From positions 1,054,001 to 1,118,000 of the forward strand of contig NZ_JAAQRC020000001.1 in NCBI RefSeq assembly GCF_019216885.1: 64,000 nucleotides of DNA. The letters are read 5' to 3'. The first letter of the stretch is position 1, and each line of letters begins with the position of its first letter. The translations under genes were made by a program, and so were the position numbers. Below, piece after piece: positions 2,979 through 10,642 of the stretch. Source of the DNA: Methylobacterium sp. SyP6R (GTDB lineage Bacteria > Pseudomonadota > Alphaproteobacteria > Rhizobiales > Beijerinckiaceae). The notes beneath the pieces were generated by a model, which saw only the letters and a list, made by a program, of their open reading frames with translations, was not told the origin of the DNA and searched no databases.

Positions 2979-3779
2979 ATGAGAGGACGGATCGCGGCAA
3001 GTCTCGGCCTCGGCCTCGCGCTCCTCGCGGGGGCGGCGGCGGCGAGCCCGCGCGGGCGCGAGCCGCCGGCCTGCCGGGGCCGCATCGCCGCAGAGGACCG
3101 GATCGAGGCGGTGGCCGCGCGGGGCGAGCTCGTCCTCGCCTCCGGGCGGCGGGCGCGCCTCGACGGGGTGCGCTGGCCCGACGACCCGGCGGCGGCCGAG
3201 GCCGCGCGGGCCTGGCTCGCCGGGTTCGCGGGCCGGACGCTCGCCACCCGCGAGGCGCCGGAGCCCGACCGCTGGGGCCGAATCGTCCTGGACGCCGCCA
3301 CACAGGGTGGGGAGCCGGCCGACCTCGCCGGCGGGCTGGTGGCGGCCGGGCTGGTCGCGGTCGATGCCGGGGAGGGCGACAGCCTGTGCCGACCCGGCCT
3401 GCTGGCGCTGGAGGACGCGGCCCGCCGCCGGGGGCAGGGGCTCTGGGCGGCGGCACCCCCGGTGCCGACCGAGGAGGTGGCGCGGCTCGCGACGATGGTG
3501 GGCCGATTCGCGGTCGTGGAGGGGAGGGTGCGCAACGTCGGCGAGCGCGAGCGCCGCACCTACCTCAACTTCGCCCCTTTCGGTGCGGAAGGTGTTACGG
3601 TCACGGTGTCGAAACGCACTTGGCGGATCATGCTCGAACGTGGTTTCTCTTCCCCGGCGCTTCGGGGGCGGCGCGTGCGGGCTCGCGGCATCGTCGAGCT
3701 GTGGCGCGGGCCGACCCTGGATATCGGCGCGGCCGAGATGATCGAGATGCTGGACGAGGAGCAGGCGCCGCGGCGCTGA
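2979..3779 (+). CDS. thermonuclease (staphylococcal nuclease-like) family protein
   Basis: A 266-residue exported protein with a clear signal peptide (MRGRIAASLGLGLALLAGAA). Residues about 40-160 resemble an SNase/OB-fold domain: ARLDGVRWPDDP, then EPDRWGRIVLDA, then a LAGGLVAAGLVAV segment and LEDAARRRGQGLW near the end. In the family the catalytic positions are Arg, Glu and Arg. The Arg in DRWGR is kept, but the usual TPE glutamate segment reads WPDD, so activity is uncertain. A C-terminal beta-rich domain (about 165-260) follows. The gene ends 5 bases before the M48 protease gene, suggesting joint transcription of two envelope proteins. Confidence 0.7.
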   Translation: MRGRIAASLGLGLALLAGAAAASPRGREPPACRGRIAAEDRIEAVAARGELVLASGRRARLDGVRWPDDPAAAEAARAWLAGFAGRTLATREAPEPDRWGRIVLDAATQGGEPADLAGGLVAAGLVAVDAGEGDSLCRPGLLALEDAARRRGQGLWAAAPPVPTEEVARLATMVGRFAVVEGRVRNVGERERRTYLNFAPFGAEGVTVTVSKRTWRIMLERGFSSPALRGRRVRARGIVELWRGPTLDIGAAEMIEMLDEEQAPRR

Positions 3780-3784
3780 TCGCC

Positions 3785-5296
3785 ATGGGGTGGTCTTTCA
3801 CGCGAACACGGCCGGCCGGGGGCGCGGCCATCTTGTCAGCGGCAGCCATCGTGCCGGCGGCGGCGATCATGCCGGCGACGGTCTTGGCGCTGCTCGTCGC
3901 CGCCTGCACGTCGGACCAGACCGGCGCGCTGGCGCCGGTGGCGGCCGTCGTGCCGCCCGAGGCGCCGCGCACCACCGGGCGCGACCGGCCGGCCAACGAC
4001 GCCGACCACGCCAAGCTCGTGGCCTCGTTCGGCGGCGAGTACAAGGCGCCGTCGGCGTTGCGCCTCGTCAGCGACGTCACCGACCGCCTGGTCAAGGCGA
4101 CGGAGCGCCCGGACGAGACCTACGCGGTGACGCTGCTCGATTCGCCGGTGGTGAACGCCTTCGCGCTGCCGACCGGCCGGATCTACGTCACCCGCGGCCT
4201 GCTGGCGCTCGCCGACGACACCTCGGAGCTCGCCGCGGTGCTGGCGCACGAGATCGCCCACGTGACCCTGCGCCACGCCAGCGCCCGCACCGAGATGGCG
4301 CTCCGCTCCGAGCTCGTCAGCAAGGTCGTGGCCGACGTGCTCAACGATCCCGCGACCGGCGCCCTCTTGCAGGACCAGTCCCGCTTCGTGCTGGCCCGCT
4401 TCTCGCGCACCCAGGAATTCGAGGCCGACCAGACCGGGGTACGCACGTTGGCCCGCGCCGGCTACGACCCGTTCGGGGCCTCGCGCTTCCTCACCGCGCT
4501 CAACCGTACCACTGCGCTCCGCGCCGGGTCCGGGCTCAATTCCGAGCCCGACATGCTGGCGACCCATCCGAGCACGCCCGAGCGCATCACCCAGGTGACG
4601 CAGGCCGCGCGGCGCATCGGCGCCCCCGGCCTCGGCGTCGACGACCGCAACCGCTACCTCGCGGCGATCGACGGCATCGCCTACGGCGACAACCCGGCCG
4701 ACGGGCTGATCCGCGGCCGCCGCTTCATCCATCCGCGCCTCGGCGTCGCCTTCGAGGCGCCGGAGGGTTTCGGGCTCGACAACACCGCCCGCGCGGTGCT
4801 CGGCACCACCCCGGACGGCAAGAGCCGCCTCTTGTTCGACGCCGTCGAGACCAATGCCGGCCAGGGCCTCGAAGAGGTGCTGAAGGCGACCTGGAACGAC
4901 GCGATCGAGACCGGGAGCTTCGAGAACCGGATGCTGAACGGCTTTCCGGCGGTGACGGCGGTGTCGAAGGGCAAGGAGTGGTTCTTCCGCCTCGCCGCGG
5001 TACGGGTCGGCTCCAACACCTTCCGGATGATCATGGCCGCCAAGGGCGCGACCGATCCGGAGCCCGCCTTCGGCCGCTGGCTCGCCAGCATCGCCCTGGT
5101 GACCCCGGAGGAGGCGCGCAGCCTCAAGCCCCTGCGCATCCAGGTCGTGACCGCCGCCGCCGGCGACACCGTCGAGAGCCTGGCCCAGCGCATGACGGCG
5201 GTCGACCGGCCGCTCGAGCGTTTCCAGGTCCTCAACGGGCTCGACAAGGGCGTGCCGGTGCGCGCCGGCCTGCCCTACAAGCTGGTGGTCGAGTAG
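3785..5296 (+). CDS. M48 family metalloprotease, probable lipoprotein, with LysM-like tail
   Basis: A 503-residue protein. The zinc site is HEIAH at residues 155-159 and the third ligand is likely Glu213 in QEFEADQTG, the M48 (BepA/YfgC-type) arrangement. The N-terminus is hydrophobic and ends in LLVAAC, a lipobox, so the enzyme probably sits in the periplasm attached to a membrane. The last about 50 residues (GDTVESLAQRM...VLNGLDKG) look like a LysM-type peptidoglycan-binding fold. The family acts in outer-membrane protein quality control. The start at 3785 is the first ATG after the preceding gene; one at 3869 is possible but would remove the positive charges of the signal sequence. Confidence 0.85.
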   Translation: MGWSFTRTRPAGGAAILSAAAIVPAAAIMPATVLALLVAACTSDQTGALAPVAAVVPPEAPRTTGRDRPANDADHAKLVASFGGEYKAPSALRLVSDVTDRLVKATERPDETYAVTLLDSPVVNAFALPTGRIYVTRGLLALADDTSELAAVLAHEIAHVTLRHASARTEMALRSELVSKVVADVLNDPATGALLQDQSRFVLARFSRTQEFEADQTGVRTLARAGYDPFGASRFLTALNRTTALRAGSGLNSEPDMLATHPSTPERITQVTQAARRIGAPGLGVDDRNRYLAAIDGIAYGDNPADGLIRGRRFIHPRLGVAFEAPEGFGLDNTARAVLGTTPDGKSRLLFDAVETNAGQGLEEVLKATWNDAIETGSFENRMLNGFPAVTAVSKGKEWFFRLAAVRVGSNTFRMIMAAKGATDPEPAFGRWLASIALVTPEEARSLKPLRIQVVTAAAGDTVESLAQRMTAVDRPLERFQVLNGLDKGVPVRAGLPYKLVVE

Positions 5297-5371
5297 GGCG
5301 CGGAAACGGGGCGATCCGTGCCGTTGCCCCGCTTCTCAACCCGGATCGACCGTGCTATCTGGGCAGCCGCC

Positions 5372-5445
5372 GCGGGTGTAGCTCAATGGTAGAGCAGCAG
5401 CCTTCCAAGCTGAATACGAGGGTTCGATTCCCTTCACCCGCTCCA
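5372..5445 (+). tRNA. tRNA-Gly(UCC)
   Basis: Complete cloverleaf: acceptor GCGGGTG/CACCCGC, D stem GCTC/GAGC, anticodon loop CTTCCAA (anticodon TCC), T loop TTCGATT, and encoded CCA after discriminator T. The 3' half from 5399 onward, together with about 230 bases downstream, is repeated at 7091. Confidence 0.95.
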
Positions 5446-6290
5446 GCTTCTCCCCCCTTGCATCGCAGGGGCGTGGATTGACGTCACGCTGGGCTCGCGT
5501 TCCCGGCGCACCCTAAACCCGCTGCGGGAAGTCGTCCGGCCTCTGGTCCTTCGGGGATTTATGCGTCCTGTCCTGGTGAAGACGCCGTAGCGTCCTCCCG
5601 CCCGACACGACCCTTGGGCCCCGCCGGCAGCGCCGGGCGGGGCGTTTCGGGCCGGGCCTACGCGGCGAGCCAGGCGAAGCGTTCGGCATCGTCCCAGGCG
5701 CAAGCGGCGCCGAGCGACGCCGCGAACACGCCCGACAGGCGCCTGCGCTCGGCCTCGACCACCGGACCGTCCACGGCAACGGGCCGGCAGCGGGCGGCAA
5801 GGCCCGGCACGACGAAGTCCGGATTGTGGAGCGCGTGATCGGAGGCTTCCGTGAAGAACGGACGGTCGCCCCAGTCGAGGTAGCTCTCAGCGGACAGGCC
5901 GTCGGCGAGCAGGATGTCGTGAGCATCGAGCTCGACGTGCCAGTAGGTGACCGAGGAGACCGCCTCGCGGGCGATGCTGGTGCCGTTGATCAGGCACATG
6001 ATCGGCACGAGATGGCCGCCCGCGCCATCCGCATCCGCCCCGACGAGGACCGGATGGCCGGGGGAGAGGCGGAGATCCCGGGCGGGCAGCCCCGGCCCGA
6101 AGGCACCGGCGCGGATGCGGACCGGCTGCTGGTCGTGAGGCAGGGTCCGGCCGCGTCCATCGAGATGGCGATGCCCGATCCAGGTGACGGGTCGCAGGGC
6201 GCCGGAGACGGTGACGGCGAGGTCGCCGACCCATAGATCCTCCACCGCCACGTCGCCGCGCGCCGTGCTGATCCGGCTGCCTGTGACAAA
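5399..6290. repeat. Hint-unit repeat, copy 1
   Basis: It starts inside the tRNA-Gly anticodon stem, runs through about 210 bases of non-coding DNA and then through the whole Hint-coding part of the gene at 5658-6683. It is nearly identical to 7091-7980. Similarity stops abruptly at about the codons just before the Hint cysteine. The non-coding part includes hairpins GACGC/GCGTC near 5580 and a long GCCCCGCC...GGCGGGGC palindrome near 5620-5646 downstream of the Hint stop. Confidence 0.85.
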
Positions 6291-6683
6291 GCATACGGCG
6301 ACAGGGTTTGCTGCAATGTCTGCGGATTGCGCCTGTGTAAAGGTTGAGGTCGGTGGTGAAGTGCTGCCGTCGAAAATTATTCTTGTATATCTAGCATTAT
6401 AAAAGACGCTATCTGATGGCGATTTTATGAATAAATTGAGATAACTATAATCTTCTGAAGGCTGCCCTTGGGTTAAATTAATATTATAGTATGTGGTTCT
6501 ATCGATATTGAATTCCTTAAGGACAGTCCCGCTGGAAATTATTTTGCCGCCCGCTATGATATTTATATCATAAACTCGCATATTGCTGTAATCAATGATT
6601 AACGATCCGCTCGCTGGAATGGTACTTCCGTCGCTCTGGTTTATAAGCTGTGAGCTAAAAGAATAAGAATAAACGGTGGCCAC
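5658..6683 (-). CDS. Hint-domain protein, paralogue 1
   Basis: A 341-residue protein. Residues 1-125 are a beta-rich, AT-coded N-terminal domain containing YSYSF and the pattern GSLIIDYSNMRVYDINIIAG. A Hedgehog/intein (Hint_2-type) domain begins at Cys131 (CFVTGSRISTARGDVAVEDL), with LSPGHPVLV carrying the block-B-like histidine, and runs to the C-terminus. Hint domains cleave themselves at the leading cysteine. No extein follows, so this is not an intein. The GTG at 6681-6683 is chosen because GGGGAGAA precedes it and the resulting N-terminus (MATVYSYSF) matches paralogue 2. No signal peptide is visible. Confidence 0.82.
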   Translation of the reverse strand: MATVYSYSFSSQLINQSDGSTIPASGSLIIDYSNMRVYDINIIAGGKIISSGTVLKEFNIDRTTYYNINLTQGQPSEDYSYLNLFIKSPSDSVFYNARYTRIIFDGSTSPPTSTFTQAQSADIAANPVAVCFVTGSRISTARGDVAVEDLWVGDLAVTVSGALRPVTWIGHRHLDGRGRTLPHDQQPVRIRAGAFGPGLPARDLRLSPGHPVLVGADADGAGGHLVPIMCLINGTSIAREAVSSVTYWHVELDAHDILLADGLSAESYLDWGDRPFFTEASDHALHNPDFVVPGLAARCRPVAVDGPVVEAERRRLSGVFAASLGAACAWDDAERFAWLAA

Positions 6684-7090
6684 GACGTTCTCCCCAGAGC
6701 ACTCAATTTTCATATTATGTATTTTTCAGGTTGCAATCTGTCCCGCAACATCCAATTTAAGAGTTGCAAACAAACAACGAACCGTAGACCAAAAAGAGAA
6801 CATCGCCTGGCCCCACGGATAGTTACTGCTTTCCACCCATCCGGCCATGGCGCATCCTAACAGATGACGAAGTGCAATTATCCTCCAGGGGAAGTCAGGC
6901 CGCCACGCCGCGCGATCGACAGCGGTAGGGCAGGGCGCCTGAACGGGGGGCTTGGCCGGAACGGACATCCGCTCCCACCCGATCAATCGACGGCTTAGCG
7001 GTTCATCATCGCACTCGAAACTCCTCCCCAGGGCATGGTGGTTAGGTTCGCGACGAGGAATGAGGCGCAGCAGGATCAAAGGCTTAGCTG
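6684..7090. other. intergenic region upstream of Hint paralogue 1
   Basis: The first about 100 bases (6684-6790) are AT-rich and probably hold the promoter of the Hint gene; the rest is GC-rich. A minus-strand frame is open across much of it, but it runs on through the duplicated tRNA tail, has no ribosome binding site and matches nothing I know. I therefore do not call a gene. Confidence 0.4.
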
Positions 7091-7136
7091 AGCCTTCCAA
7101 GCTGAATACGAGGGCTCGATTCCCTTCACCCGCTCC
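7091..7136 (+). pseudogene. tRNA-Gly 3'-half fragment
   Basis: A copy of bases 5399-5445 of tRNA-Gly (anticodon loop to CCA) with a T-to-C change in the T arm (GGGCTCGAT for GGGTTCGAT) and a one-base difference in register. The 5' half, with the D arm and 5' acceptor strand, is missing, so it cannot make a tRNA. It marks the left edge of the second copy of the Hint-gene repeat unit. Confidence 0.85.
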
Positions 7137-7980
7137 AGCTTTCCCCCCTTGCAGAGCAAGGGCGTGGATTGACGTCACGCTGGGCTCGCGTTCCCGGCGC
7201 ACCTTAAACCCGCTGCGGGAAGTCGTCCGGCCTCTGGTCCTTCGGGGATTTATGCGTCCTGTCCTGGTGAAGACGCCGTAGCGTCTTCCCGCCCGACACG
7301 ACCCTTGGGCCCCGCCGGCAGCGCCGGGCGGGGCGTTTCGGGCCGGGACTACGCGGCGATCCAGGCGAAGCGCTCGGCCTCGTCCCAGGCGCAGGCCTCT
7401 CCGAGCGACGCGGCGAACACGCCCGACAGACGCTCGCGCTCGGCCTCGACCACCGGACCGTCCACGGCAACGGGCCGGCAGCGGGCGGCAAGGCCCGGCA
7501 CGACGAAGTCGGGATTGTGGAGCGCGTGATCGGAGCCTTCGGTGAAGAACGGGCGATCACCCCAGTCGAGATAGCTCTCGGCGGGCAGGCCCTCGGCGAA
7601 CAGGATATCGTGGGCGTCGAGTTCGATATGCCAGTAGGTGACCGACGAGACCGGCTCGCGGACGATGGTGGTGCCGTTGATCAGGCACATGATCGGCACG
7701 AGGTGGCCGCCCGCGCCATCCGCATCCGCCCCGACGAGCACCGGATGGCCGGGGGAAAGGGAGAGGTTCCGGGCGGGACGACCCGGCCCGAAGGCACCGG
7801 CGCGGACGCGGATCGGTTGCTGGTCATGAGGCACGACGCGGCCCTGCCCGTCGAGACGGCGGTGCCCGATCCAGGTGACAGGCCGAAGGGCACCGGAGGC
7901 GGTCACAGCCCGATCGCCGACCCGCAGGTTCTCGACGGCGACGTCACCGCGCGCCGTGCGGATTTGCGTGCCGGTGCAGA
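7091..7980. repeat. Hint-unit repeat, copy 2
   Basis: A direct repeat of 5399-6290, offset by about 1.69 kb, with scattered substitutions. It contains the tRNA-Gly 3' half, about 210 non-coding bases and the Hint-coding segment of the gene at 7349-8362. The sequence upstream of the Hint cysteine codon is unrelated to copy 1 at the DNA level. Confidence 0.85.
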
Positions 7981-8362
7981 AGCAGACAGGAGTCGTCGCT
8001 ACGGGTACAGATGCAGCCCGCGCATCCGTGATTACGGGTGGCATAGCCACGCTCGATGTGTTGCTAGCGTAATAATTCATATTTAATAATGATGACGGCT
8101 CTCTAGTTTCCCAGCTAAAATTCAGATTATAGCTATTATAAATTGATGTAGCATATGAAAAACCCACATTATAAGCATTGGGTCCGCTTTCAAATATGCT
8201 TCGTGCCGTTGTAGGAGCAAATATTGCGTCTCTTATTCTGATATCTACATTGTATATTTGCATTGTGTCGTAATTTACATAATATGATCCGGCGATGGGT
8301 ATCGATTTGCCGTCCAAGTTGGTCAGCGAGCTATTAAACGTATAGGAATAAACGCTTGCCAC
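7349..8362 (-). CDS. Hint-domain protein, paralogue 2
   Basis: A 337-residue protein with a GTG start at 8360-8362 behind GGAGGATGTC, a strong ribosome binding site. The N-terminal 120 residues are beta-rich and AT-coded (MASVYSYTFN, then GSYYVNYDTMQIYNVDIRI). The Hint domain starts at Cys127 (CFCTGTQIRTARGDVAVENL) and is nearly identical to paralogues 1 and 3 through to the C-terminal AERFAWIAA. Retention of Cys, of LSPGHPVLV and of the downstream aspartates suggests active self-processing. The N-domain shares only a short motif with its neighbours, so the cleaved-off part would differ in each protein. Confidence 0.82.
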   Translation of the reverse strand: MASVYSYTFNSSLTNLDGKSIPIAGSYYVNYDTMQIYNVDIRIRDAIFAPTTARSIFESGPNAYNVGFSYATSIYNSYNLNFSWETREPSSLLNMNYYASNTSSVAMPPVITDARAASVPVATTPVCFCTGTQIRTARGDVAVENLRVGDRAVTASGALRPVTWIGHRRLDGQGRVVPHDQQPIRVRAGAFGPGRPARNLSLSPGHPVLVGADADGAGGHLVPIMCLINGTTIVREPVSSVTYWHIELDAHDILFAEGLPAESYLDWGDRPFFTEGSDHALHNPDFVVPGLAARCRPVAVDGPVVEAERERLSGVFAASLGEACAWDEAERFAWIAA

Positions 8363-8629
8363 GACATCCTCCTCCGAAGCAGGAAATTCTAAATTATAAG
8401 TACCAAAAGTTGCAATTCGGCTCAGGTCATTAAACCAAAATGTCGCAAATATACAACAAAAATCAGGTCAGAAGTAGAACGTGACTCGGGCGCGCACGTC
8501 TTTCCACCTCCCGCCTATCCGTCGCAAGTTCCGGAACGATGGGGCGGAGCCCAGAGGCGGGGGCGGCGAGGGTACCGGCCCCGGTCCGGACGCTCTGCGA
8601 AACCGGACGGGATATCCGCCCCCGTGATC

Positions 8630-8714
8630 TCAGATCGGCATCTCGAACGCCACGCCCACCTGGTCGCGCCGGCGCCACACCACGCGGCAGCGGCGCATCA
8701 CGAACTCGCCGGCA
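8630..8714 (-). pseudogene. duplicated 3' end of the PilZ gene
   Basis: These 85 bases match 10068-10152 (the last about 27 codons and stop of the PilZ gene) at all but about two positions. They still read AGEFVMRRCRVVWRRRDQVG in frame to a TGA at 8630-8632. At 8707-8714 the match switches into Hint-unit sequence through the shared octamer CGCCGGCA. The copy has no start of its own. Confidence 0.85.
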
Positions 8715-9370
8715 GCGCCGGGCGGGGCGTTTCGGGCCGGGACTACGCGGCGAGCCAGTCGAAGCGTTCGGCCTCGTCCCAGGCGCAAGCGGCGCCGAGC
8801 GACGCCGCGAACACGCCCGACAGGCGCCTGCGCTCGGCCTCGACCACCGGGCCGTCCACGGCCACCGGCCGGCAGCGGGCGGAAAGACCCGGCACGACGA
8901 AGTCGGGGTTGTGCAGGGCGTGGTCGGAGGCTTCCGTGAAGAACGGGCGGTCGCCCCAGTCGAGATAGCTCTCGGCGGGCAGGCCCTCGGCGAACAGGAT
9001 GTCGTGGGCATCGAGTTCGATATGCCAGTAGGTGACCGACGAGACCGGCTCGCGGACGATGGTGGTGCCGTTGATCAAGCACATGATCGGCACGAGGTGG
9101 CCGCCCGCGCCATCCGCATCGCCCCCGACGAGCACCGGGTGGCCGGGGGAAAGGGAGAGGTTCCGGGCGGGAAGACCCGGCCCGAAGGCACCGGCGCGGA
9201 CGCGGATCGGTTGCTGGTCATGGGGCACGACGCGGCCCTGCGCGTCAAGACGGCGGTGACCGATCCAGGTGACCGGCCGCAGGGCGCCGGAGGCGGTCAC
9301 CGCCCGGTCGCCGACGCGCAGGTGCTCGACAGCAACGTCGCCACGATCCGTGCGGATGCTCGTGCCGCTC
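8707..9370. repeat. Hint-unit repeat, copy 3 (shorter)
   Basis: The third copy of the Hint-coding repeat. It begins at GCCGGCAGCGCCGGGCGGGG, a point also present in copies 1 and 2 (near 5630 and 7316). It lacks the tRNA tail and non-coding spacer, which are replaced by the PilZ gene remnant at 8630-8714. Confidence 0.8.
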
Positions 9371-9786
9371 GTGAAGCAAACGGCAACCGTGGTGACGGGG
9401 GCATTCGTCGCCTCGGCGCTCGTACGTACCGGCAGGAAATAGCGATCGCTGCCATATATGTTCCTCAAATAACTAACATTAGAAAATGAAGATGTATCTA
9501 CCGACTCATATTTAAAATATAACCCGGCCGAATCTTTTGAAATAGACGCATATTGATTACTTACAGTACCTGAAGAATACGATAAATTGACTCTATATGA
9601 TGAAGTTCCATCGAAATTTTTGCCATATTCGACCGTTCCAGACGTAAATCTTATATCTCCAGACACGACGTTAATGTCGTACACCCGCATAGAATTATAA
9701 TCTACACTGAAAGATCCAATAGCCGACACATAGGAAGGGCGAAAAACTCCCGATTTGTAATCAAATGAATAGGAATAATTGTCCGC
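8743..9786 (-). CDS. Hint-domain protein, paralogue 3
   Basis: A 347-residue protein starting at the ATG 9784-9786 (MADNYSYSFD), preceded by GGAGAGCGCA; an outer start at 9819 has no such site. The N-domain (1-132) carries GSFSVDYNSMRVYDINVVSG, the same short motif as paralogue 1. Hint starts at Cys138 (CFTSGTSIRTDRGDVAVEHL). The region coding the N-domain (about 9,460-9,790) is visibly AT-rich while the Hint part is very GC-rich. The gene lies between a complete PilZ gene and a copy of that gene's tail. Confidence 0.82.
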   Translation of the reverse strand, partial: ADNYSYSFDYKSGVFRPSYVSAIGSFSVDYNSMRVYDINVVSGDIRFTSGTVEYGKNFDGTSSYRVNLSYSSGTVSNQYASISKDSAGLYFKYESVDTSSFSNVSYLRNIYGSDRYFLPVRTSAEATNAPVTTVAVCFTSGTSIRTDRGDVAVEHLRVGDRAVTASGALRPVTWIGHRRLDAQGRVVPHDQQPIRVRAGAFGPGLPARNLSLSPGHPVLVGGDADGAGGHLVPIMCLINGTTIVREPVSSVTYWHIELDAHDILFAEGLPAESYLDWGDRPFFTEASDHALHNPDFVVPGLSARCRPVAVDGPVVEAERRRLSGVFAASLGAACAWDEAERFDWLAA

Positions 9787-10067
9787 CATTGCGCTCTCCG
9801 CGATGCTGCATACGAACAATACATATTATTGGCCGCAAGTCTATTCGTACACTCAGCGATAATGTTGCCAATATGCAACACTCCTCGACCGGGCTGGTCG
9901 TCCCTTCCCCCCGATACGGTTTTCGTGCGGCCCGGTCGGAAAACCACATCAGGCGACGATTCACGGGTCTCGAGGACGACCTGGGCGGCACCGGGGCTCG
10001 CCGACGGAGCTTGTGCTCGATCGCACCGATCCTGGTCGGACACACGGCGATGTCGGCTCCGGTGACC

Positions 10068-10289
10068 TCAGACCGGCATCTCGAACGCCACGCCGACCTG
10101 GTCGCGCCGGCGCCACACCACGCGGCAGCGGCGCATCACGAACTCGCCGGCAATCGCCAGCGTGATCGCATCCGGCACCACGGTTCCGGCAGGGACCGTG
10201 AGCAATGCGCCGACGACCGTAAGGTTCGATACCTGACAATCCACCGCGGGTGACGGTGAATCGAAGATGATCTCGCCGCGTGATGCCAT
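10068..10289 (-). CDS. small PilZ-domain-like protein
   Basis: A 73-residue protein from the ATG at 10287-10289, chosen because GAGGGG lies 7 bases upstream; an outer ATG at 10322 would add 11 residues. The fold pattern is PilZ-like: a central DCQVSNLTVVGALLTV corresponds to the [DN]xSxxG strand, and the end RRCRVVWRRRDQVGVAFE is typical of rhizobial PilZ proteins. The N-terminal RxxxR c-di-GMP-binding motif is not visible and NLTVVG replaces the usual (D/N)LSxxG, so ligand binding is doubtful. Confidence 0.65.
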   Translation of the reverse strand: MASRGEIIFDSPSPAVDCQVSNLTVVGALLTVPAGTVVPDAITLAIAGEFVMRRCRVVWRRRDQVGVAFEMPV

Positions 10290-10642
10290 CGGCTCGCCCC
10301 TCGATGCCGACAATAAGTTCATAGTCAGGTTCCGGACAGCCCCATAGAGCGATTATTGCTCAAGATGGCCGATCGTTCGCGTGTGAAATCGACCGGAGGC
10401 GATAGGCACGAGGGCTTAAGGCGAGTGGCTCCGGCGCTGCCGGTACGGCCTCCCGCCCGCCTTGGCGCGCCCCTTGGTGCACCCCTTGGCGCGAAGCTTG
10501 CTCCCGGGGCGAGCGTGACCGTTGGAAACCCTGCAATCCGCCTTGACCGAGCGATCGGACCGAGGCGAACCTGGCAGGAGAGCCGGCTCTTCAGGGGCCC
10601 GGGCACGGCTCACGACCACAGGCCCCGCAGGCAGGATACGCC
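10290..10642. other. intergenic region, nothing recognised
   Basis: No supported reading frame. The only structure seen is a short imperfect direct repeat of CCCTTGGCGC around 10460-10500. It presumably contains the promoter of the peptide transporter operon that starts at 10643. Confidence 0.4.

Follow-up and report, generated by a model that had tools for sequence, protein, structure and literature searches.

Three tandem genes on the minus strand of Methylobacterium sp. SyP6R share a constant C-terminal cassette, composed of a Hint_2 domain and a conserved tail, behind variable N-terminal domains (N-domains) of ~126-140 residues. They occupy positions 5658-9789 of the 64,000-nucleotide stretch analysed here, referred to as the window (assembly GCF_019216885.1, contig NZ_JAAQRC020000001.1, positions 1,054,001 to 1,118,000), and lie between tRNA-Gly(TCC) and a PilZ-domain gene. 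The cassette comprises 211 residues from its leading cysteine, Cys1, to the protein end, ~145 for Hint_2 and ~70 for the tail. This layout, proposed in a preliminary description made from the letters of the sequence, is borne out by matches to Pfam family PF13403 in all three proteins and by alignment, and the pattern of one constant cassette with variable N-domains also holds across the genus. We consider it somewhat more probable than its negation that these are extracellular proteins in which a variable beta domain is joined to a constant autoprocessing unit, that the array arose by segmental duplication and that cassettes have been overwritten within several genomes. The Hint domain would form a thioester at the bond between N-domain and Cys1, and the N-domain would then be released or handed to another nucleophile. 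Growth of the array by segmental duplication would have swept in part of tRNA-Gly and a piece of the PilZ gene. In several Methylobacterium genomes, cassettes would have been replaced by other copies of the genome they sit in, over the whole length between Cys1 and stop codon in the clearest pair, in genes whose N-domains are unrelated or diverged.

Gene 1 (open reading frame (ORF) 5658-6713) contains an N-domain at 6294-6713 with a G+C content (GC) of 41% and a cassette at 5658-6293, with the Cys1 codon at 6293-6291. Gene 2 (ORF 7349-8362) starts with GTG, and its N-domain at 7985-8362 (42% GC) is followed by the cassette at 7349-7984 (Cys1 codon 7984-7982). Gene 3 (ORF 8743-9789) has its N-domain, predicted all-beta, at 9379-9789 (42% GC) and its cassette at 8743-9378 (Cys1 codon 9378-9376). 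All cassettes are assigned by Pfam and alignment, that of gene 3 also by a structure match. The three genes were placed correctly in the preliminary description except that gene 3 starts with the ATG at 9789, not at 9786; our gene 3 queries started at 9786 and hence lack the first Met. Its numbering of the leading cysteine of gene 1 as residue 131 is valid for the GTG at 6683, which aligns with the other starts, but an ATG is located upstream at 6713.

The cassettes are 86.9% (genes 1 and 2), 86.4% (1 and 3) and 91.3% (2 and 3) identical at the DNA level. With protein identity set against these DNA values, the N-domains are far less alike, as anticipated: 29%, 38% and 34% for the same pairs. 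In the three-way protein alignment, columns from Cys1 to the end are mostly identical and the N part retains only scattered conserved columns. These include YSY-F and GS....Y..M..Y; the longer motif GSxxxxYxxMxxYxxxI noted earlier is shared apart from its final I, which is V in gene 3. DNA homology within the array stops close to the Cys1 codon. The base composition changes at the same place, with 41-42% GC in the N parts, 71-72% in the cassettes and 69.4% in the whole window, and the drop falls at Cys1.

All three array proteins match Hint_2 (PF13403) well above the cut-off, with 148.5, 152.6 and 153 bits (E 9e-45 to 2e-43) versus a curated cut-off of 28.4. The family match stops ~70 residues before the protein end, and both the conserved tail and the N-domains are outside it. 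Cys1 (C137), the His of SPGHP (H216, block B) and both His of TYWH.EL..H (block F) are invariant in 58/58 sequences, a set in which 55 were hand-picked among 120 listed. The modelled Hint part of gene 3 matches solved inteins and bacterial intein-like (BIL) domains, in most rows from residue 134-137 on, and the top fold match is 2lwy, a BIL domain tied with inteins. The cassette thereby combines the Hint fold, Cys1 and the block B His that characterize the Hint superfamily. Among viral structures, the best matches are to Hint-domain proteins of giant viruses, that of Cafeteria roenbergensis included, and one virus has several of them.

The C-terminal His-Asn of inteins and A-type BIL domains is absent from the array proteins, where the segment after motif F reads ES at the HN position. 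HN followed by C, S or T at the end of the Hint domain occurs in 0/163 sequences, a set in which 11 do not start with Cys and 11 lack SPxH, both attributed to parsing. In a set of 121 proteins, three were dropped because Cys1 was not parsed. The protein and locus lists overlap (L011 and P0048, for example, are identical), and the counts of 121 and 163 contain repeats. Splicing is not expected, since the C-terminal His-Asn and the following nucleophile are missing, and cleavage at the bond between N-domain and Cys1 is likelier. With intein motifs A, B and F present, as assigned by eye, and the C-terminal motif absent, the likely class of the cassette, and its closest match in mode of action, is the B-type BIL domain. 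In the accessible part of the source, B-type BIL domains have every intein motif except the C-terminal one, cleave on their N-terminal side and sit in hypervariable, nonconserved proteins (PMC7765530).

The N-domains of the array still belong to one family, the other two matching that of gene 3 with E 5e-10 and 2e-4. Among 111 genomes, matches to the gene 3 N-domain are found in three: the own genome, with the three array genes, and two others with one gene each. All of these are fused to Hint. The gene 3 N-domain was not found without Hint (one search returned just a short self-fragment), and a word-based search, which is weak for fast-evolving domains, found no N-domain relatives outside Hint proteins. 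The two relatives in other genomes share one locus, flanked by genes that we take to be RuvA-like and radical-SAM-like. The corresponding locus in SyP6R has ~3.6-4.4 kb of largely unmatched DNA instead (L151, ~3693-8081), with no Hint_2 match. By eye, alike AT-rich words are seen upstream of genes of the array N family.

Across the genus the N parts are diverse, and the low GC upstream of Cys1 recurs. The 67 Hint hits recovered from 55/55 source loci contain short N-domains of seven families with at least two genes each and of four singletons. In all 65 hits counted, including one spurious fragment, the N part is lower in GC than its cassette; across an initial set of 47 the gap is between 0.5 and 31 points. 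A set of 122 N-domains contains 0.1% Cys, 0.2% His, 0.1% Trp and 1.1% Lys and is rich in Thr, Ser, Gly and Asn; 114/122 are free of Cys. Extracellular proteins are often of such composition, which suggests that the N-domains belong to extracellular proteins. A domain poor in these residues also offers few side chains able to attack a thioester. Structure prediction, proposed at the outset for the N-domains, yields an all-beta model for gene 3 with ten-residue mean predicted local distance difference test (pLDDT) values of 67-95 over residues 21-110, and models of two N families are all-beta. No fold match could be assigned to the N-domain, as matches to the Hint part crowded the fold searches. 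A sequence search of solved structures with the N-domain gave nothing below E 0.017, and NCBIfam gave no match at 0.1. Secretion also draws indirect support from the array-type cassette that follows a serralysin-type protease. We infer export, cleavage at Cys1 and release or attachment of the N-domain, and likewise a biological role.

Evidence for overwriting comes from cassette trees. The tree contains 55 cassettes; 12 of the 67 hits were excluded because the N part was long or tiny, the cassette of unusual length, the hit a spurious fragment or the sequence collagen-like. Six starred, i.e. well-supported, clades join genes of the same genome that carry different N families (G092, G024, G041, G046, G067 and G091), and they are recovered alike in the 45-row and the 55-row tree. 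The cassettes of G084 also group by genome, at 88/92, and the G041 clade includes a plasmid copy from M. aquaticum that is 98% identical. M. terrae (G024) and M. ajmalii (G041) share two N families. Their N orthologues are 83 and 85% identical and the cassettes of these orthologues 85.5 and 85.0%, while the two cassettes within a genome are 94.8 and 90.4% identical. Approximately unbiased (AU) tests reject the two N-ortholog groupings on the cassette tree (p 7e-6 and 1e-8) and do so again with the 55-row set, a result weakened by the choice of the groups after the first tree was viewed. In the M. terrae pair, identity climbs from 47 to 100% at Cys1 and falls to 43% just past the stop. For one of the N families common to M. 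terrae and M. ajmalii, the flanks also match in part. This grouping by genome fits gene conversion of the C-terminal part in several genomes and is not a rule; conversion as the process is what we infer from the trees.

Several observations weigh against this interpretation. Of 12 non-independent comparisons between genomes that have two N families in common, only 6 come out in favour of within-genome similarity (5/7 in a smaller set), and both N pairs are >80% identical in only one of the 12. In SyP6R itself, the three array cassettes alone form a clade, and those of its three other short genes stay outside. In two starred pairs, the partners differ in genome as well as in N family. On the 54 rows of the two main clades, genome labels need 31 changes, compared with a mean of 41.2 and a minimum of 37 when shuffled within clades, and N-family labels need 24 (shuffled mean 31.2, lowest 25; 0/500 as low). 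Both processes, overwriting inside genomes and inheritance along with the N-domain, have thus left marks. For the 12 intact cassettes of Jiella and Aurantimonas the tree has no starred branch, and homogenisation there is neither supported nor excluded by it. With regard to export, no signal peptide is obvious in the array proteins by eye, no predictor having been used, nor was any secretion system recognised next to the array genes. The tail is poorly modelled, with ten-residue mean pLDDT of 39-56 over residues 271-320. As a separate observation, one gene of G052 (L044) has an N-domain of family f1 and a cassette that groups among those of f0 genes, a possible exchange between families.

The constancy of the cassette could have other origins. 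Its last 70 residues are conserved and an array-type cassette also ends a serralysin-type protease, and type I export signals are usually located at the C-terminal end of a protein. The cassette could accordingly be imagined as a C-terminal export or anchoring module that retains the Hint fold, is not an active protease in vivo and is kept constant through recognition by an export machinery. We regard this as unlikely, as the invariance of Cys1 and of the block B and F His in 58/58 sequences goes beyond the needs of a mere signal. A spreading cassette, in which Hint and tail are copied onto the ends of unrelated genes and likeness within a genome stems from recent insertion and not from conversion, would account for very different N parts carrying it and for homology of the clearest pair that runs from Cys1 to the stop codon. 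However, M. ajmalii and M. terrae both have two N families already joined to a cassette, and the flanks of one of these families are shared in part between the two species, which points to replacement and not new insertion there; nor was the gene 3 N-domain found on its own. We consider such spreading quite improbable. The same holds for a history of plain duplication in which paralogues never recombined and the N parts underwent relaxed or diversifying divergence: kinship among the three N-domains can still be recognised, and half of the comparisons of two genomes speak for a cassette inherited together with its N-domain, but the trees, the AU results and the sharp boundary at Cys1 require recombination or replacement in several genomes.

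The preliminary description had further likened the array to polymorphic secreted systems. Its core, one cassette with varied N-domains, stands; for polymorphism of the toxin type we see no supporting sign, although the test is weak. In favour of N-domains that are toxins or effectors set free by the Hint domain, the array does contain variable low-GC domains, and papers on the Neisseria MafB toxins reportedly mention Hint domains. Yet no immunity gene was recognised between the array genes by a rough gene caller that favours GC-rich genes of >=70 residues, with the ORF at 6726-7202 left unevaluated, and no match to a defence library was obtained. Beta-rich N-domains nearly devoid of His and Lys also offer few residues for catalysis, and in known polymorphic toxins the variable part is C-terminal. 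We hold a toxin function to be very improbable. A further possibility, which we regard as improbable, is a display system resembling Hedgehog maturation, in which variable beta domains poor in Cys and Lys would be transferred by Hint and tail out of the Cys1 thioester and onto a lipid or an acceptor at the cell surface, and gene conversion would keep the processing unit uniform while the displayed domains vary. A hopanoid alcohol is a candidate acceptor in Methylobacterium.

The history of the array is recorded in its repeats. The block 5399-6272 matches 7091-7963 with 90.5% identity over 874 columns and includes the 3' part of tRNA-Gly. The paralogy described earlier is real, and the repeat is longer than had been noted. 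Further blocks relate 7313-7973 to 8707-9367 (92.3%) and 8607-8714 to 10044-10152, the 3' end of the PilZ gene (92.7%). The intact tRNA-Gly (TCC) was located by ARAGORN at 5372-5445 on the plus strand. A copy of its 3' part with the next bases, at 7091-7148 on the same strand, opens the duplicated block 7091-7963 and has one mismatch within the 30 bases tested. The PilZ-domain gene lies on the minus strand at 10068-10322 (PF07238, 22.8 bits, cut-off 22.5), and the related fragment at 8607-8714, also minus, is a duplicate of its 3' end. An 8-base word common to both, CGCCGGCA, marks the junction between PilZ copy and cassette 3 block. We read the array as a product of segmental duplications, as its repeat structure suggests, one of which carried along the 3' part of tRNA-Gly. 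The copy at 7091 had raised the idea of attL/attR sites of a tRNA integration island. Segmental duplication fits better, since homology continues ~800 bases past the tRNA into cassette 2 and the only other genome copies of the tRNA-Gly 3' sequence at <=3 mismatches are three with 3 mismatches each. Between genes 1 and 2, an ORF of 158 residues (6726-7202, minus) overlaps the tRNA fragment. Folding of the regions 3' of the three array stops is at most slightly better than that of shuffled sequences (z -0.64, -1.54 and 0.97), and no terminator-like site was found in them.

The locus was compared among relatives, as the preliminary description had proposed. The gene upstream of tRNA-Gly, presumably an M48-like peptidase, is found in 99/99 genomes, and none of the tRNA-Gly loci of 14 relatives contains the array, two of these contigs ending ~1 kb past the tRNA. 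In 10 of the 14, similarity to the window extends across the tRNA and is lost <=64 bases beyond it; in the other four it stops before the tRNA, at the upstream gene. The array is therefore not conserved in place, and the tRNA-Gly site may be a rearrangement hot spot. In one of the 10, M. terrae (L020), 229 bases matching the cassette end lie in the same orientation ~5 kb away from tRNA-Gly, a Hint cassette remnant at 4446-4669 near what we take to be an IS3-type transposase. Adjacency to tRNA-Gly, which the preliminary description had remarked on, is probably incidental and the tRNA a bystander, given that its 3' part was co-duplicated, that the 14 relatives lack the array and that the nearest N-domain relatives in two genomes are located elsewhere.

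Hint_2 genes are common beyond the array. The 7.5 Mb SyP6R genome has eight, six of them with short N-domains when the array is included. One has collagen triple-helix repeats (PF01391) in front (L009, 2570-5689), and in another a matrixin-type protease with a serralysin C-terminal domain precedes an array-type cassette. Hint_2 occurs in 64/99 congeneric Methylobacterium genomes with 1 to 12 copies each, and copies lie within 3 kb of each other in at least seven genomes, SyP6R included. Many of the listed relatives are named 'Hint domain-containing protein' at NCBI. The 12 intact genes of Jiella and Aurantimonas, with one truncated gene excluded, have the array layout with N parts of 42-62% GC and cassettes of 64-70%. 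Three of the array type stand in tandem in Jiella pacifica (L099; N parts 48-53% GC, cassettes 65-68%).

The component families, and the principle of a variable protein joined to an intein-like domain, are already known, the latter from BIL domains. In the accessible part of the source, B-type BIL domains resemble the array cassettes in having intein motifs without the C-terminal motif and in residing in variable host proteins (PMC7765530). The family described here differs in the C-terminal position of the Hint part, in its constant tail and in the likeness of copies within a genome in several genomes. Hedgehog/Hog proteins are marked by a sterol-recognition region and lipid transfer; for the array family no lipid transfer is known, and its tail is not confidently modelled. 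MafB and other Hint-containing polymorphic toxins also place a Hint domain in a variable multi-copy gene family, with the order of constant and variable parts reversed relative to the array; beside the array, the rough gene caller recognised no immunity gene. As far as we searched the literature, three features are new: a tail that stays constant while N families are many, an abrupt boundary at Cys1 and tree evidence for overwriting in several genomes. Searches linking the Hint domain with Methylobacterium, or intein-like domains with concerted evolution, found nothing in literature that mostly excludes subscription papers, and a search for Hint domain and gene conversion gave no title on the Hint_2 cassette family among the matches listed. 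In the accessible part of one report, PF13403 is enriched in fast-growing marine bacteria with no function given; another, likewise seen in part, reports a point mutation in a 'Hint domain-containing protein' of unknown function. Hint_2 is widespread in Alphaproteobacteria and has no assigned function in the annotations and literature searched. The pattern provides a testable frame of one processing unit with many cargoes, points to the bond at Cys1 and supplies natural cargo swaps. Were cleavage to pass the cargo to an acceptor, this would be a bacterial parallel to Hedgehog maturation. Longer N parts are seen at another locus (L063), where four Hint_2 genes stand in tandem and the one checked matches PD40 beta-propeller repeats.

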